From: Brachybacterium nesterenkovii
Lineage (GTDB): Bacteria > Actinomycetota > Actinomycetes > Actinomycetales > Dermabacteraceae
Reading direction: 5' to 3'
Assembly (NCBI RefSeq): GCF_900163655.1
Contig: NZ_FWFG01000116.1
Location: 1 to 58,327 of the forward strand
DNA: 58,327 nt
How positions within the stretch are numbered: position 1 is the stretch's first letter; every line of letters starts with the position of its first letter. The notes below the pieces were generated by a model. It was given only the letters and a program-made list of their open reading frames with translations. It did not search any database and was not told the DNA's origin. Position numbers and translations under genes: made by a program. Positions 48,421-58,327 of the stretch are shown here, piece after piece.

Positions 48421-48897
48421 ATGCCTGCACCCACCAAGGGCGCTCGCCTCGGCGGATCCCCCGCTCACGAGCGGATGATCCTGGCGAACCTCGCCACCGA
48501 GCTGTTCCGCCACAAGGCGATCACCACCACCGAGTCGCGCGCCAAGCGCCTGCGCCCCCTCGCGGAGCGCCTCGTGACCCAGGCGAAGAAGGGCGATCTC
48601 GCCTCCCGCCGCCGGGTTATGCGCACCGTGCGCGACAAGGGCGTCGTCTACTCGCTGTTCGAGGAGATCGCGCCGACGTTCGCGGAGCGCCCGGGCGGCT
48701 ACACCCGCATCACCAAGGTCGCGCCCCGCAAGGGCGACAACGCGCCGATGGCCGTCATCGAGCTCGTGACCGAGGCCTACTCGGCCAAGCAGTCCGTGGT
48801 CAAGGAGGCCGAGGGCGCCGCGAAGAACGCCGCCAAGGCCGACGAGACCCCCGCCGCGCTGGTCGACACCGCCGCCGCGGAGGACGAGAAGGCCTGA
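48421..48897 (+). CDS. rplQ: 50S ribosomal protein L17
   Basis: Lies near the tunnel exit. It is 158 residues. It has [20 protein letters not shown] and [20 protein letters not shown], with the usual L17 core ending near residue 120 ([10 protein letters not shown]). An Ala/Glu-rich tail of about 38 residues follows, as in other actinobacteria. It ends the alpha operon. truA, often next, is not here. Confidence 0.97.
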
Positions 48898-49160: not shown

Positions 49161-51239
49161 ATGTCCCCCTCCCATCCCGTCCGCCCCCTCCCGTCGGTCC
49201 GTCGGCGCGTGCTCCTCGGCCTCGGCGCCGCCGCCGTCCCCGCGGCCGTGCTCGGCCTCCCGGAGGTCGCCGACGCCGTCCCCGCCGGGCCCGGTGCGCC
49301 CGCGGAGCCCGTGCTGCCGCTCGAGCCGGTCGATCCGGCGGTCACCGGCGGCGAGACCGTCATCCTCGATCAGGTGCTCGCGGACCTCGCGCCCGTCACG
49401 GACGACCCGGACGGCCCGCTGCGGCGCATCGAGGACGTCGCCGCCACGATGATCGGCTGCACGTGGCAGGGCGAGGCCCCCGAGGAGGTGTGGGTCCGCG
49501 GCCGCGCCGAGGACGGCACCTGGTCCCCGTGGCTCGAGGCCGAGCGCGCCTTCGACCCGGAGACGGGCGATGCCGCCGACGGCACCGAGCCCTCCTGGCT
49601 GGGCGGCTCCTTCGCCGTCGACGTGCGCGCCTCCCGCGGCGGCGAGGACGTCTCCGGCGAGCTCACCGCGCACATCGTCACCACCTCCCCCCGCAAGCAG
49701 GACGACGGGACCGCGCTGTTCACCGCCGGGGCCGGCGTCGGCGCGACGGGCCGCGTCGGCGTCGTCGGCGCGATCTCCTCGACGGCGGGCACCAGCATCG
49801 GGCCCAACGCGCCGACCGTCATCTCCCGCGCGCAGTGGGGAGCCGATGAGTCCCTCGTCCGCTCGGTGTCCACGAGCTCCTCGCTCAAGGGCGTGGTCCT
49901 GCACCACACGGCGGGGGCGAACTCCTACAGCCAGGCGGAGTCGGCCCAGCAGGTGCGCGGCATCCTGAGCTACCACACCAAGACGCTCGGCTGGTCGGAC
50001 ATCGGCTACAACTTCCTGATCGACCGCTACGGCCAGGTCTTCGAGGCCCGCCACGGCGGGATGATCAACAACGTCGTCGGCGCCCATGCGCTCGGCTTCA
50101 ACACCGGCACCTGCGGGATCTCGGTCATGGGCGACTTCACCTCGAGCGCCCCGCCGCAGGTCGCGATCGACGCCGCGATGTCGGTGGCCGCATGGAAGCT
50201 GCTGGGCACGATGCGCGCCGACATCTCCGAGAAGGTTTCCTACACCGTCGGCATCTCCGGGACGCGCTTCCCCAAGGGGTCGACGCAGTCGCTGCCGCGG
50301 TTCTACGCGCACCGCGACGTCGGCACCACCGCCTGCCCCGGCGCCGCGTTCTACGGCCGCATGTCGACCATGCGCACGGATCTGCAGCGCCGTATCGACA
50401 CCGGCTGGCGAGGCCACTTCGACGCATTCCGCACGGCGGGCGGAGGCGACGTCCTCGGCTCGGTCAAGAAGGTCGCCCACCCGAAGGGCTCGTACACGCT
50501 CACGGTCCTGACCAAGGGCATCATCCTGTCCGATGGGCTCAAGAACTCCGTCGCCTACGCGACGCCGTTCGCGGACTCGTGGAAGCCCGAGTGGGGCCGG
50601 CCGACCTCGGAGGCTTCGGAGGTCTCGGGCGTCACGCGTCAGCGGTTCGAGCACGGGACCGCCGTCCTCCAGGGCGGTAACGTCACGTTCTCGACGCAGC
50701 GCTTCAGCGACGTCCCCCCGAGCATGATGTTCGCGGCCGAGATCGAGGAGATCGCCGCCCGGGGCATCACGACCGGCTACCCCGACGGCACCTACCGGCC
50801 GGCGGCGTCGATCAACCGCGATGCGATGATCGCGTTCATCCACCGCGCCAAGGGGTCCCCGTCGTCCACGCCGCCAGCGCGCTCGCCGTTCCGGGATCTG
50901 ACGCCGTCGACGATGTACTACAAGGAGATCTGCTGGGCGCTGGACCAGGGCATCACGACGGGTTATCCGGACGGTACGTATCGTCCGACGGAGCCGGTCG
51001 AGCGCGGTGCGGTCGCGGCATTCCTCCACCGCTGCGCTGGATCGCCCACGGTGTCGACCGGAGGCCAGCGGTTCAGCGACGTGCCGGTGAGCCATCAGTT
51101 CTTCCGGGAGATCTCCTGGCTCGTGAGCGCAGGGATCACCACGGGGTGGCCGGACGGCACGTTCCATCCGGAGGCTGCGATCAACCGTGATGCGATGGCG
51201 GCGTTCATGGTGCGGTGGCTCAAGGCCACCGGGGCATGA
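49161..51239 (+). CDS. Secreted N-acetylmuramoyl-L-alanine amidase with three SLH domains
   Basis: A 692-residue exported cell-wall hydrolase. The N-terminus has a signal peptide with three arginines (SVRRRVLLGLGAAAVPAAVL), possibly Tat-dependent. A linker of about 200 residues leads to an amidase_2/PGRP domain with zinc-ligand candidates His248/His249 (LHHTAG), His384 and Cys392 (AHRDVGTTACPG). A short LGFP-like region follows near residues 420-510. Three SLH repeats end the protein (about 513-563, 574-627, 636-692), each with a GITTGYPDGTY-type core. The usual TRAE motif is replaced by NRDA, ERGA and NRDA. GGAG precedes ATG 49161. The stop overlaps the next start (ATGA), coupling it to the pyruvyltransferase/glycosyltransferase gene. 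Confidence 0.9.
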   Translation: MSPSHPVRPLPSVRRRVLLGLGAAAVPAAVLGLPEVADAVPAGPGAPAEPVLPLEPVDPAVTGGETVILDQVLADLAPVTDDPDGPLRRIEDVAATMIGCTWQGEAPEEVWVRGRAEDGTWSPWLEAERAFDPETGDAADGTEPSWLGGSFAVDVRASRGGEDVSGELTAHIVTTSPRKQDDGTALFTAGAGVGATGRVGVVGAISSTAGTSIGPNAPTVISRAQWGADESLVRSVSTSSSLKGVVLHHTAGANSYSQAESAQQVRGILSYHTKTLGWSDIGYNFLIDRYGQVFEARHGGMINNVVGAHALGFNTGTCGISVMGDFTSSAPPQVAIDAAMSVAAWKLLGTMRADISEKVSYTVGISGTRFPKGSTQSLPRFYAHRDVGTTACPGAAFYGRMSTMRTDLQRRIDTGWRGHFDAFRTAGGGDVLGSVKKVAHPKGSYTLTVLTKGIILSDGLKNSVAYATPFADSWKPEWGRPTSEASEVSGVTRQRFEHGTAVLQGGNVTFSTQRFSDVPPSMMFAAEIEEIAARGITTGYPDGTYRPAASINRDAMIAFIHRAKGSPSSTPPARSPFRDLTPSTMYYKEICWALDQGITTGYPDGTYRPTEPVERGAVAAFLHRCAGSPTVSTGGQRFSDVPVSHQFFREISWLVSAGITTGWPDGTFHPEAAINRDAMAAFMVRWLKATGA

Positions 51240-53581
51240 CCGACGGCCGTGCGCTCCGCGTCGCGCTGCTGTGCGACGTCGACCAGAGCGTCTACCACGT
51301 CGGCGACGAGGCGATCGGGCTGGCCGGCGCCCAGCGGCTGGGGGCGCACGGATTCGACGTCGTCATGGTCTCGCGGGGCGAGAAGTACGGCCCCGAGGGG
51401 ACCGTGCCCGCCGAGGCGATCGAGGCGCTGACCTTCCCCTGGCCCGAGCCCGACCGCGAGCGGTACCTCGACGAGATCACCCGCGTGCTCGCGGGGGAGC
51501 CCGGTGCCCTGCCGCCCGAGGACAAGCTGCATCGCATCATCGAGCAGATCCGCGGGGTCGACGCCCTCGTGATCGGCGGCGGAGGCAGCCTGAACTCCCG
51601 CTACGGCTGGCTCCTGTACGAGCGCGCCGCGACGGCGCTGGTCGCGGCGGCGCTCGGCAAGCCCGTCGTCCTGACCGGTCAGAGCGTCGGACCCGACCTC
51701 ACGGTCACGGATGCCGAGGTCCTCGGACGGCTGCTCGACGCGTGCGTCCTCGCAGGCGTGCGGGACGCCGACTCGCTCGCGCTCGCCCGCGCGATCCGCC
51801 CGGAGCATCCCGCGCTCGTGCAGACCGTCGACGACGCCGTGCTGCTCGAGGGCCTCGACGACGTCGGGCTCGCCGAGCGCATTTCCGTGACCGTAGGATC
51901 GGACCCGGGCTCCCTGCCCGCCGACGATCTCGTCGCGGTCATGGCCGCCGTCGTCGACGGCCTCGCGGACCGCACCGGCGCCGAGATCGAGCTCGTGCCC
52001 CACATGGCCGATCCCGACACCGGCGGCAGCGACCTCGACATGCACGCGCGCATCGCCTCCCGCCTGCGCCACGATGCCGCGCAGCTGCCCATCCGCCCCG
52101 CCGAGGAGACGGCGCGGCGCCAGGCGGGCTCCGCCTGGATCGTGACGACCCGCTTCCACCCCGTCGTGTTCGGCACCGCGTCCGGGGCAAGCGTGCTCGC
52201 GCTGCCGATGAACCGGTACGGGCGCAGCCGCGTCGACGGCGCCCTCGCCAACGCCGGCTGGTCCGGCGGCTCGGTCCCGCTCGCGGCGCTCTGGGATCCG
52301 GCGACCGGCGGGGCATCCGCCCTGCTCGACCCCGTCCTCGACGCGCTCGTCGCCCGTGCCGAGCGCGAGCGCGAGCACCTGCGCGCCCGCCGGACAGGGG
52401 TGCGCGCCGACGCCGCGGCATGGTGGGACCGGATCGCCGGGGCCCTGCGCGGCGAGGGAGCCGGATGCGCACCCGCCCTCCGCGGCCCCGCCCCCGTGCA
52501 GCGCTTCGACGACGACCTGCGCGCGGCGCTCGCACCGTACCGCGCCGTCGAGCAGGCGGAGCGGAGCGCACCGGCGACCGTCGGCATCGTGATGCGCACC
52601 CAGGACCGGACGGTGATGCTCGATCGCGCCGTGCGCGACGTCCTGTCCCAGACCTGGGCCGACTGGCATCTCGTGATCGTCGACGATGCGGGCTCGGACC
52701 CCGCAGGCGTCGTCGCCGTCGTCGCCCGCTACGCGCATGAGGCCGCTGGGCGCATCACCGTCCTGCATCGCGATCGTTCGACGGGGATGGAGGCCGCGAG
52801 CAACGCCGGGATCGCCGCGACGGCGACGGAGCTGCTCGCGATCCACGACGATGACGACACCTGGCGGCCGACGTTCCTGCAGCGCACTGTCGCGCATCTG
52901 CGCGCGCATCCCGAGCAGCCGGCCGTCGTGGTGCGCACCGAGATCGTGCATGAGCACCAGGAGGGCACGACGCTGGTCGAGGACGAGCGCTTCGTCGTGA
53001 ACCCCGAGCTCACCGGGATGCACCTCGTGGACTTCATGGCGCTGAACCGGACCACGCCGATCGCCGTGCTGCACCGCCGGGCCGTGCACGATGAGGTGGG
53101 CCTGTTCCGCGAGGACCTCCCCGTCGTGGGCGACTACGAGTTCCACTTGCGCCTGCTGGCCCGGGGACCGATCGGCTTCCTGGATCTGCCGCTCGCCGAG
53201 TGGCGTCTGCGCCCGAGCGCCTCGGGCACAGCGAGCAACTCGATGTTCGCGGCCGCCGACGCCCACACGGAGTTCGACCGTGTCCTGGCCGACGAGCATC
53301 TGCGCCCCTGGGTCGCCGAGCACGGGCTCGGCCTGCCCCTGTTCATCTCCCGCGCCGTCGAGGAGCGCGTGGGGAAGGCCCTGTCCCCGCTGCATGAGCA
53401 GAACGAGCGGCTGCTCGCACTGCTCGAGGAGACCACGGCACGTCTCTCCATGCTCGAGGAGGTCGCGCGCCACCAGCAGGTCCGTCTCGATGAGCGCAGC
53501 GCCGTCGACCTCACGCGGCGCGCGGCCCGCTCCGCGCGCACCGGGATGCACCGGGCGGTGGGGCTGCTCCGCCGGAACTGA
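51236..53581 (+). CDS. Polysaccharide pyruvyltransferase fused to a family-2 glycosyltransferase
   Basis: A 781-residue cytoplasmic fusion. Residues ~6-330 resemble the CsaB/WcaK pyruvyltransferase family, which moves a pyruvyl ketal from phosphoenolpyruvate to a wall sugar: VGDEAIGLAGAQRL, VIGGGGSLNSRYGWLLYE near 115, and the R-F-H motif at Arg306-His308. Residues ~448-690 form a GT-A glycosyltransferase with VGIVMRTQDRTVMLDRAV, VDDAGSD and the metal-binding DDDD at 538-541. A coiled-coil segment lies near 700-745. No membrane segment is seen. The start, ATG 51236, overlaps the SLH-amidase stop. I infer that it modifies the wall polymer to which SLH proteins bind. The sugar substrates are unknown. 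Confidence 0.83.
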   Translation: MTDGRALRVALLCDVDQSVYHVGDEAIGLAGAQRLGAHGFDVVMVSRGEKYGPEGTVPAEAIEALTFPWPEPDRERYLDEITRVLAGEPGALPPEDKLHRIIEQIRGVDALVIGGGGSLNSRYGWLLYERAATALVAAALGKPVVLTGQSVGPDLTVTDAEVLGRLLDACVLAGVRDADSLALARAIRPEHPALVQTVDDAVLLEGLDDVGLAERISVTVGSDPGSLPADDLVAVMAAVVDGLADRTGAEIELVPHMADPDTGGSDLDMHARIASRLRHDAAQLPIRPAEETARRQAGSAWIVTTRFHPVVFGTASGASVLALPMNRYGRSRVDGALANAGWSGGSVPLAALWDPATGGASALLDPVLDALVARAEREREHLRARRTGVRADAAAWWDRIAGALRGEGAGCAPALRGPAPVQRFDDDLRAALAPYRAVEQAERSAPATVGIVMRTQDRTVMLDRAVRDVLSQTWADWHLVIVDDAGSDPAGVVAVVARYAHEAAGRITVLHRDRSTGMEAASNAGIAATATELLAIHDDDDTWRPTFLQRTVAHLRAHPEQPAVVVRTEIVHEHQEGTTLVEDERFVVNPELTGMHLVDFMALNRTTPIAVLHRRAVHDEVGLFREDLPVVGDYEFHLRLLARGPIGFLDLPLAEWRLRPSASGTASNSMFAAADAHTEFDRVLADEHLRPWVAEHGLGLPLFISRAVEERVGKALSPLHEQNERLLALLEETTARLSMLEEVARHQQVRLDERSAVDLTRRAARSARTGMHRAVGLLRRN

Positions 53582-53620
53582 GACAGCCCCGCCCGCATGA
53601 CGGACGGGGCGGCGCCTGTC
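53582..53620. terminator. Bidirectional terminator between convergent genes
   Basis: GCCCCGCCCG (53586-53595) pairs with CGGACGGGGC (53601-53610) with one mismatch. GACAG and CTGTC outside it (53582-53586, 53616-53620) can extend the structure. The element fills the gap between the glycosyltransferase and purL stops. Confidence 0.6.
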
Positions 53621-55949
53621 AGGCGAAGCGGCCCGGCAGGGTCTCCTCGCGCAGCGCGCGCAGCTCGTCGACGCCGAACGCGCCGATGCCCTGGATCTCG
53701 AGCGCATCCCCGGTGGTCACGCCGATGCGGACCATCGGCAGGGCGCGGGCGGTGCACATGTCGGTGAAGCGGACCTCCTCGCTGCGGGGGACCGCGACGA
53801 TCGCGCGCGCCGAGGACTCCGAGACGAGCGCCATGAACGGGTCGATCCCGTCGCGGGCGCAGAGGTCGTCGAGCACGATGCGGGCGCCGACGCCGAAGCG
53901 GCAGCAGGACTCGACGAGGGCCTGGACGAGGCCTCCCTCGGAGAGGTCGTGCGCCGCATCGGCCATCCCGTCCCGGGAGGCGGCGACGAGCACCTCGCCC
54001 AGCACCTTCTCGGCGGCCAGGTCGTCGATGGGAGGCATGCCGCCCAGGTGGGCGTGGATGACGTCGGCCCAGGCGCTGCCGGAGAGCTCCTCGCGGGTGG
54101 TGCCGAGCGCGAAGATCGCCAGGCCCTCGGCCTGCCAGCCCGAGGGGGTGCGGCGGTTGACGTCGTCGAGGACGCCGAGGACGCCGATGACGGGGGTCGG
54201 GTGGATCGCCGAGTCGATGCGCCCTACCTCGCCCGTCGAGTTGTACAGCGAGACGTTGCCGCCGGTGACGGGCACGCCCAGCTCCTGGCAGCCGTCGGCG
54301 AGGCCGCCGATCGCCTCGACCAGCTGCCACATGGGCCCCGGGTCCTCGGGGGAGCCGAAGTTCAGGCAGTCGGTGACGGCCAGCGGGACGGCGCCCGCGG
54401 TGGCGACGTTGCGGTAGGCCTCGGCCAGCGCCAGGCGGGCGCCGGTGCGGGGATCGAGCTTGGTGTAGCGGCCGTTGCCGTCGGTCGCGAGCGCAACCCC
54501 GCGGCCGGTCTCCTCGTCCACCCGCAGCACGCCCGCGTCATCGGGCATCGCGAGCGCGGTCTGCCCGCCGACGTAGCGGTCGTACTGATCGGTGATCCAG
54601 TGGCGCGAGCACAGGTTCGGGGAGGCGACGAGCGTGCGGATCTGCGCGGCGATCTCCTCGGGGGACTGCGCGCGGGGGAGGTCCTCGGCGCGGTCGGCCT
54701 GCAGGGCGTCCTGCCAGTCGGGGCGGGCGTAGGGGCGCTCGTAGGTGGGGCCGCCGTGGGCGACCGTCACGGGGTCCACGTCCACGATGCGACGCCCGAA
54801 ATGGTCGATGGTGAGGCGGCCGTCGCCGGTGACCTCGCCGATCACGGCGGCCTCGACGTCCCAGCGGCCCGTGATCGCGAGGAAGCGCTCGAGCTTCTCG
54901 GGAGCGACGACGGCCATCATGCGCTCCTGCGACTCGCTCATGAGGATCTCGCCGGCACTCAGCGTGGGGTCGCGCAGCAGCACGTTCTCGAGGTCCACGT
55001 GCATGCCGGAGCCGCCGTTGGAGGCCAGCTCGCTCGTGGCGCAGGAGATGCCGGCGGCGCCGAGGTCCTGGATGCCCTCGACCACGTCGGCCGCGAACAG
55101 CTCGAGGCAGCACTCGATGAGGACCTTCTCCATGAAGGGGTCGCCCACCTGGACGCTCGGCCGCTTGACCGGGCCGCCCTCCTCGAAGGTCTCCGAGGCG
55201 AGGATGGAGGCGCCGCCGATGCCGTCGCCGCCGGTGCGGGCGCCGAACAGCACCACCTTGTTGCCCGGGCCGGTCGCGGACGCCAGGTGGATGTCCTCGT
55301 GGCGCAGGACGCCGACGCACAGGGCGTTGACGAGGGGGTTGGTCTGGTAGGCGGCGTCGAAGACGGTCTCGCCGCCGATGTTGGGCAGGCCCAGGGAGTT
55401 GCCGTAGCCGCCGACGCCGCCGACGACGCCGTGGACCACGCGCGCCGTGTCATCGGCGTCGATGGCGCCGAAGCGCAGCTGGTCCATGACCGCCACGGGG
55501 CGCGCGCCCATCGCGATGATGTCGCGGACGATGCCGCCCACGCCCGTCGCCGCGCCCTGGTACGGCTCGACGTAGGAGGGGTGGTTGTGGGACTCGACCT
55601 TGAAGGTCACCGCCCAGCCGTCGCCGATGTCCACGACGCCCGCGTTCTCGCCGATGCCCACGAGCAGGTGCTCGCGCATCTCCTCGGTGGTCTTCTCCCC
55701 GAACACCTTCAGGTGAACCTTGGAGGACTTGTAGGAGCAGTGCTCGGACCACATGACTGAGTACATGGCGAGCTCAGCGTTCGTGGGGCGGCGCCCCAGG
55801 ATCTCCCGGATCCTCGCGTACTCGTCGTCCTTGAGGCCGAGCTCGGCGTAGGGCTGGGGCTGGTCCGCGGTGGCCGCGGCGAGCTCGACCGTGTCGAGGT
55901 CGCCGCCGTCGGAGGGCGCGGTGGACGGGCTGGCGGGGGGAGGAGTCAT
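53619..55949 (-). CDS. purL: Phosphoribosylformylglycinamidine synthase subunit PurL
   Basis: Fourth step of purine synthesis: FGAR plus glutamine-derived ammonia to FGAM. It is 776 residues, the small PurL type that needs separate PurQ and PurS. It has [19 protein letters not shown] near residue 63, the nucleotide-binding [32 protein letters not shown], and the C-terminal half with [15 protein letters not shown] Pro/Ala/Ser stretch of about 30 residues leads. The start is ATG 55949, with a poor ribosome-binding site. A possible -10 TAGGAT lies at 55999-55994. purQ and purS are not next to it. Confidence 0.95.
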
Positions 55950-58277: not shown

Positions 58278-58327
58278 CTGTCCCTTATACACATCACCGC
58301 GCCCACGAGACGCGTAGTAATCTCGAA
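58278..58327. other. Illumina Nextera adapter and index (not genomic)
   Basis: CTGTCCCTTATACACATC at 58278-58295 is the Tn5 mosaic end with one mismatch. ACCGCGCCCACGAGAC completes the Read 2 adapter with two more mismatches. GCGTAGTA (58312-58319) sits exactly where an 8-base i7 index belongs, and ATCTCGAA matches the start of the P7 region with one mismatch. These bases should be trimmed. Confidence 0.95.

Follow-up and report, generated by a model that had tools for sequence, protein, structure and literature searches.

A pyruvyltransferase gene beside an SLH-anchored amidase in Brachybacterium nesterenkovii probably makes the wall ligand of its neighbor

What does a pyruvyltransferase do when its gene overlaps the end of a gene for a wall-anchored amidase? 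This arrangement occurs in a 58,327-nucleotide stretch of Brachybacterium nesterenkovii DNA (Dermabacteraceae; assembly GCF_900163655.1, contig NZ_FWFG01000116.1, positions 1 to 58,327 of the forward strand; hereafter the window), where a secreted amidase ending in S-layer homology (SLH) repeats is followed by a fused pyruvyltransferase-glycosyltransferase. Judging from sequence comparisons, we consider it likely that the pyruvyltransferase gene makes the wall ligand bound by the SLH trimer of its neighbor, and that the pair works as a swappable lock and key. The core of this idea was put forward in an earlier note on the same DNA, and it finds good support in the co-occurrence of enzyme and anchor, their repeated co-exchange, their co-loss, and the co-variation of the SLH pocket with the enzyme.

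The first gene of the pair (49161..51239, + strand) encodes a 692-aa protein with a signal-like N-terminus, RRR plus a hydrophobic stretch as judged by eye. Its Amidase_2/PGRP-like domain (PF01510; residues 242-394, 49884..50342, +) scored 49.4 bits against a cut-off of 26 and was matched by PGRP structures with E-values down to 1.3e-27; HHTAG and AHRDVGTTACPG are present in the protein. The three SLH repeats that the earlier note had placed at the end of this amidase were recovered, with coordinates that hold, at 115.8 bits over three stretches (PF00395; 50700..50828, 50886..51017, and 51069..51200, all +), every single repeat exceeding the cut-off of 20.8. A structure model of the trimer (pLDDT 92.9) had the three-pronged trimer fold and matched 3pyw (E 5.9e-8, TM 0.82/0.86) along with the Sap and SpaA SLH structures; 6bt4 and 6cwh were solved with pyruvylated ligands. 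The second gene (51236..53581, +) encodes a 781-aa enzyme with a PS_pyruv_trans domain (PF04230; residues 22-323, 51299..52204, +; 84.7 bits, cut-off 25.3) and a glycosyltransferase family 2 (GT2) domain that the earlier note had not named (Glycos_transf_2; residues 455-573, 52598..52954, +; 68.7 bits). The signatures that it did name, GGGGSLNSRYG and R-F-H, are in the protein, and R306 and H308, which form the R-x-H motif for binding of phosphoenolpyruvate (PEP), are invariant in an alignment of 18 sequences. In a model of the enzyme (pLDDT 87.1), the N-terminal part aligned with UDP-GlcNAc 2-epimerases and other nucleotide-sugar enzymes, and the GT2 part aligned with TarS, TarP, and SpsA; unlike the wall teichoic acid glycosyltransferases TarS and TarP, the GT2 here is fused to a pyruvyltransferase.

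We then read the corresponding loci from stretches fetched from 47 family genomes, with one 74%-complete genome (G029) left out of the fetched loci. SLH matches were found in 41 of the 47 genomes and PF04230 matches in 42 (E <= 0.001). The enzymes beside the amidase are of two types: LONG, mostly 750-820 aa with a GT2 domain (941 aa in G042), to which the window enzyme belongs, and SHORT, about 360-415 aa without GT2. Both match PF04230 (84.7 versus 48.5 bits), and they share 28-32% identity in the six LONG-SHORT pairs compared. The genomes divide into 17 LONG, 11 SHORT, and 19 with neither, the type of genomes outside the order sample described below (for example G014-G016, G020, G026-G032, G039, and G046) being taken from PF04230 matches and fetched loci. 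All 28 genomes classed LONG or SHORT have SLH proteins, versus 13 of the other 19, and in 25 of those 28 (25/47 of the family) the enzyme adjoins an SLH gene, which is the SLH-amidase wherever the contig shows it (the G031 contig has the SLH end only). Because the source genome holds a single PF04230 match, the 781-aa enzyme, and six SLH repeats in two genes, adjacency in 25 of 47 genomes is far above chance, and conserved synteny led us to reject chance neighbors. In the remaining three genomes, the enzyme lies elsewhere in the genome (G045, G046) or amidase and enzyme are split between two contig ends (G033, which is nevertheless counted among the genomes with the enzyme).

The slot itself is conserved. 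In the window, the pair lies downstream of ribosomal genes ending in rpoA and rplQ (48421..48897, +) and upstream of purL on the opposite strand (53619..55949, -); we take these genes, like rpsK below, to be what their sequences appear to be. Twenty of the 25 fetched slots are flanked by purL and, on the opposite side, by rpoA or rplQ, while the stretches of G010 and G017 lack purL, that of G026 lacks both flanks, and those of G030 and G031 show purL only. The pair is inverted as one unit in G043. The ATGA stop/start overlap reported in the earlier note is real (51236..51239, +) but is not conserved at other loci, where the spacing ranges from overlaps of uncertain start to a 116-base gap; translational coupling as a conserved principle was rejected for this reason, and in G035 an inverted repeat, seen by eye, lies between the genes. 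Two variants stood out among the loci: G042 has a convergent enzyme with reversed domains, GT2 then pyruvyltransferase, apparently a separate fusion (L086:6115-8940, -), and G010 has tandem SLH-amidases (L070:2696-7402, +), the first grouping with the version of enzyme-less G036 and the second with SHORT types.

Across an order sample of 396 genomes, 80 were SLH-positive (a match at E <= 1e-5). Above 220 bits, a threshold set after the scores were known, LONG matches occurred in 23 genomes, every one of them SLH-positive (11 of 11 in other families). Of the genomes with LONG above 220 bits or SHORT above 150 bits, 40/46 were SLH-positive, versus 40/350 of the others (Fisher 3.9e-26, a value that ignores relatedness). 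PF04230 of any kind was less specific (70/80 SLH-positive versus 177/316 SLH-negative genomes), and both enzyme kinds (>150 bits) were found together in one genome of the sample. The search for co-occurrence that the earlier note had proposed was thus positive in the family and in the order. An SLH gene was present in 20 of 40 stretches fetched around enzyme matches in part of the matching genomes, three of the 20 (L198-L200) having been cut to include already known SLH matches, and in 24 of 35 loci from named genomes, within 2 kb in 16; some of these 35 come from the same strains as family genomes. The named relatives of the enzyme are many Brachybacterium, one Helcobacillus, and other Dermabacteraceae. 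In Arthrobacter and Rothia loci, pyruvyltransferase and GT2 are mostly separate adjoining genes, in either order. Fusion in some lineages and separate neighbors in both orders in others suggests that the two activities serve one series of steps. A Propionibacterium metagenome-assembled genome carries a LONG enzyme (L264:4466-6910, +) that is 62% identical to the window enzyme, the first sequence of the query alignment, with SLH genes in the locus, which suggests either transfer between families or a mis-binned contig.

The two enzyme types have replaced each other repeatedly. On a species tree built from rpsK, rpoA, rplQ, and purL of 45 genomes (G026 dropped), the states LONG, SHORT, and none need 16 changes (shuffled mean 20.8); equally few were seen in 3 of 200 shuffles, so type is somewhat clustered on this tree, whose starred branches alone force at least 8 changes for LONG. 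The two ends of the amidase gene relate differently to type. LONG needs 12 changes on the tree of the amidase domain (38 rows; shuffled mean 12.1) and 2 on that of the SLH trimer (29 rows; shuffled mean 9.9, 0/500 as low), and in the common set of 25 rows type changes 8 times on the amidase tree and twice on the SLH tree. Incomplete trimers (G031, G033) were left out of the SLH trees, and genomes without the enzyme were left out of the clade test, in which the amidase domain rejected LONG as a single clade (AU test, p 7.4e-79). With species distance controlled (23 sequences, without the first amidase copy of G010), the partial correlation with type was r -0.03 (p 0.68) for the amidase domain and r 0.71 (p 0.0005) for the SLH trimer. 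The sisters G014 (LONG) and G027 (SHORT) illustrate this discordance: they are 100% identical in rpoA, 95% in purL, and 85% in the amidase domain, and 50% in SLH and 28% in the pyruvyltransferase. G014 and G037, both LONG, share 68% of the amidase and 75% of both SLH and pyruvyltransferase; for G027 and G003, both SHORT, the values are 71% for the amidase, 86% for SLH, and 80% for the enzyme. Since identities and trees are discordant within one gene, what is exchanged is the SLH trimer together with the pyruvyltransferase, while the amidase domain stays conserved.

Does the pocket of the trimer change with the enzyme? According to the SpaA paper, the ligand is contacted by SLH-Trp13, by residues 28-29, and by the TRAE motif (42-45), with Arg43 gripping the pyruvate (PMC6081394); in SLH domains of the pyruvylated-ManNAc type (ManNAc, N-acetylmannosamine), Trp13 stacks on the ManNAc. 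Arg43 and Gly29 are kept in 42/42 LONG and 32/32 SHORT amidase repeats, and Trp13 and most of TRAE are lost in both types; the window protein has M/M/Q at position 13 of repeats 1 to 3, T and G at 28 and 29 throughout, and NRDA/ERGA/NRDA at 42-45, and so has neither Trp13 nor a full TRAE. LONG and SHORT trimers separate perfectly at 7 of 156 aligned SLH columns, of which six are ligand positions taken from that paper (hypergeometric p 1.9e-5, in a test composed after the separating columns were listed): position 13 in all three repeats, 42 in repeats 1 and 2, and 45 in repeat 3. The SHORT genomes G038 and G039 were left out of the first run of this test and restored in the second, with unchanged outcome. 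A control split within the LONG clade placed 0 of its 2 separating columns at ligand positions. At position 42, K, R, or L occurs in 26/33 SHORT and 0/42 LONG amidase repeats.

SLH genes that lie apart from the pair provide a view of the pocket free of linkage. We compared a selection of such family genes, chosen among the matches listed, at the named positions, because a LONG/SHORT profile classifier had to be discarded: it was biased toward the LONG profile, which outscored the SHORT one on nearly every SLH protein, including those of SHORT genomes from other families. The K/R/L set at position 42, derived from the amidases and then applied here, was found in 6/12 repeats from 4 genes of 3 SHORT genomes versus 7/100 repeats from LONG genomes (p 4.6e-4, the repeats not being independent). 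An unlinked gene of G031 (SHORT) has K/K/L at position 42, an outcome written down as a prediction while the sequence was still unread, and its best match in the set is a 79% identical A/N/N protein of LONG G037; the second gene named in that prediction, G016:C91 (LONG), was degenerate and uninformative. In the group of presumed orthologues to which the G031 gene belongs, two SHORT genomes have K/K/K and K/K/L at 42 and five LONG genomes have no K, R, or L there (6/6 versus 0/15 repeats; 2/2 versus 0/5 genes, p 0.048). A functional matching of SLH pocket to enzyme type, beyond linkage, appears likely.

Where the enzyme is absent, the anchor is often lost or decayed. The slot has no detectable amidase in G002, G005, G008, G009, G015, G020, and G023, and the amidase is kept without detectable SLH in G011, G013, G034, G018, G040, G041, and G044. 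Joint loss alone is no proof of function, because a single deletion could take the SLH end and the enzyme together. The SLH repeats of enzyme-less amidases have lost Arg43 in 2/12 and Gly29 in 2/12. For an unlinked PhoX-SLH protein, the SLH scores add up to 197-231 bits in eight LONG genomes and to 149 and 176 bits in two enzyme-less genomes, with a similarly conserved PhoX domain in both groups; as the two enzyme-less genomes are relatives, this weakening counts as one event at most. PhoX-type alkaline phosphatases with SLH trimers recur in Brachybacterium (L100, L104; 10 among the fetched SLH genes).

Several observations weigh against the reading that the enzyme makes the ligand of the trimer and is exchanged with it. 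A single LONG clade is rejected for SLH as well (AU test, p 0.013), with SHORT G038 and G039 nested inside; independent pairs number only 5/5 (p 0.0625); and the SLH end and the pyruvyltransferase are contiguous, so that a single tract of recombination could transfer the two together even with no functional reason. Enrichment at ligand positions drops at laxer thresholds (7/14, p 5.6e-4; 8/22, p 0.0028). Among the unlinked genes, the residue at position 13 shows no match with type within the orthologue group, G006 has K/K/L in an SLH protein without having either enzyme, and SHORT genomes of other families show LONG-like rather than SHORT pockets. A diverged SLH-amidase persists in G006, G021, G025, and G036, which have neither enzyme type. 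In the order sample, LONG matches above 150 bits fall in 30 SLH-positive and 17 SLH-negative genomes, the latter including G002, a family genome classed as none (171.8 bits, no GT2 in the gene, no SLH); SHORT matches above 150 bits fall in 18 SLH-positive and 6 SLH-negative genomes (6/24 without SLH); and a PF04230 match at E <= 1e-5 is missing from 10 of the 80 SLH-positive genomes.

The alternative that survives best, although we think it unlikely, is linkage only: the enzyme would make the SLH ligand or some other decoration, co-movement would follow from contiguity, and both SLH versions would share one ligand, their differences being a matter of descent. The genes are adjacent, and a crossover in the conserved amidase domain would yield the discordance we observed; the unlinked evidence comes mainly from one protein group in few genomes, and the lack of SHORT pockets outside the family fits this alternative. 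However, descent does not predict that six of seven fixed differences fall at ligand positions when the control gives none of two. G038 and G039 combine a SHORT enzyme with a trimer that groups with that of LONG G043, yet have no LONG residue at the seven columns, and position 42 leans with type in genes that linkage does not reach. We lean toward the broader view that SLH docking in Actinobacteria relies on two or more pyruvylated wall epitopes, with writer enzyme and reader trimer forming a cassette exchanged between species and unlinked SLH proteins adapting at position 42. A lineage that acquires such a cassette would therefore switch its whole anchoring code.

A second alternative, which we regard as improbable, is that the pyruvyltransferase/GT2 decorates an exopolysaccharide or teichoic acid, has no role in anchoring, and owes its neighborhood to history. 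PF04230 enzymes are indeed common in the order (247/396 genomes), and the 17 genomes without SLH noted above carry LONG-related enzymes of 160-205 bits. Against this stand the complete co-occurrence with SLH in the family and for the strong LONG matches, the adjacency seen also in other families and orientations, including the inverted pair of G043, and the missing or degraded SLH of genomes without the enzyme. In the genomes of group f7/g12 (L194, L196), LONG-related pyruvyltransferases of about 160-190 bits occur without an SLH match and may serve pyruvylated teichoic acids. Least probable of all is that the trimer keeps Arg43 and Gly29 solely in order to fold and binds another anionic group such as phosphate or uronic acid: neither SLH-Trp13 nor most of TRAE is retained here and the SpaA paper gives the TRAE motif a folding role too (PMC6081394), but enzyme-less amidases lose Arg43 or Gly29 in places and the PhoX-SLH protein of enzyme-less genomes has weaker SLH scores beside an intact PhoX domain.

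The earlier note had called the enzyme CsaB-like. The term is loose: PF04230 and the R-x-H motif are shared, but the window enzyme scored 58.4 bits, and SHORT 15.6, against the cut-off of 213.1 for the CsaB equivalog TIGR03609, and a search for the TagA/WecG N-acetylmannosamine (ManNAc) transferase (PF03808) found none in the source genome and one in the 47 family genomes. These scores, the lack of a TagA match, and the loss of SLH-Trp13 ruled out CsaB proper. As the enzyme is no CsaB equivalog and TagA/WecG occurs in 1/47 genomes only, the pyruvate is probably carried by a sugar other than TagA-made ManNAc. G006 has a pyruvyltransferase of a third kind (L092:5916-7142, +), which reached 71.3 bits with TIGR03609, still below the cut-off; G021 and G025, which like G006 keep a diverged SLH-amidase, have PF04230 matches with scores similar to that of G006. 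A PDB sequence search with the LONG and SHORT pyruvyltransferase alignments gave no match, and the pyruvyltransferase structure 5ax7 was absent among the matches listed for the enzyme model, which excludes nothing.

How SLH domains recognize pyruvate is known in detail for the pyruvylated ManNAc of Firmicutes. The CsaB/SLH systems of Paenibacillus alvei (SpaA-CsaB-TagA) and Bacillus resemble the pair described here in the SLH trimer fold (3pyw, 6bt4, 6cwh), in keeping Arg43 and Gly29, and in using a PS_pyruv_trans enzyme. They differ from it in that the window enzyme and SHORT score far below the TIGR03609 cut-off, TagA/WecG is rare, and Trp13 is replaced; here, moreover, GT2 is fused or adjacent in LONG, and two interchangeable enzyme types come with type-specific SLH pockets. 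PMC6030368 describes P. alvei CsaB and TagA acting on lipid-linked N-acetylglucosamine (GlcNAc) and ManNAc-GlcNAc, with SLH and pyruvyltransferase genes near each other there too, and PMC10435577 reports that CsaB residues R148, H308, and K328 matter for PEP. Closer in phylogeny, wall glycopolymers of Promicromonospora, Nocardiopsis, and Brevibacterium, in the same phylum, carry pyruvate on sugars other than ManNAc; a 2019 review states that associated functions are not known (PMC6801904), whereas here, in other genera, protein anchoring is suggested. Our literature search, whose coverage mostly excluded subscription journals, found nothing on SLH with pyruvyltransferases in Micrococcales or Arthrobacter, in line with the remark in the earlier note that the link had not been described for this lineage. 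The search brought up reviews, studies of Firmicutes, and papers on unrelated topics; in the passages of PMC5902329 that were read, the single "pyruvyl" occurs in the reference list.

We propose the following route. In the cytoplasm, the PS_pyruv_trans domain would attach a PEP-derived pyruvate ketal to one sugar in the precursor of a wall polymer; that sugar is probably added by the fused GT2 domain in the LONG type. The polymer would be exported and joined to peptidoglycan by the products of genes elsewhere. The SLH trimer would then hold the secreted amidase on the wall, with Arg43 and Gly29 gripping the pyruvate and positions 13, 42, and 45 reading the sugar, and the same tag would be used by other SLH proteins of the cell. 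Depending on the species, the slot holds LONG, with GT2, or SHORT, alone, each paired with a distinct form of the SLH pocket, and trimer and pyruvyltransferase have been exchanged repeatedly under the conserved amidase domain. The term "self-contained," which the earlier note applied to the module, is too strong: the pair holds nothing for the polymer backbone, and many genomes have unlinked SLH proteins.

The source genome (3.02 Mb, 119 contigs) has its second SLH gene at L101:6260-7210 (+), with a degraded pocket (A/G/V at the Gly29 positions, H at one Arg43), adjoining a VanY/PG_binding_1/LGFP gene. At the end of the window, which is also the contig end, positions 58278-58296 (-) are a near match (2 mismatches) to a transposase-adaptor mosaic end; the last bases there are therefore probably a library artefact. 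A scan for promoters and terminators found nothing.

Overall, the locus offers a possible function, protein anchoring, for actinobacterial wall pyruvylation. More surprising than the link drawn in the earlier note is that two putative epitope/anchor pairs appear to replace each other. These natural swaps name SLH residues 13, 42, and 45 as likely deciders of epitope choice, a testable reading code, and the two pairs are candidates for orthogonal anchor/epitope systems for surface display in harmless actinobacteria.

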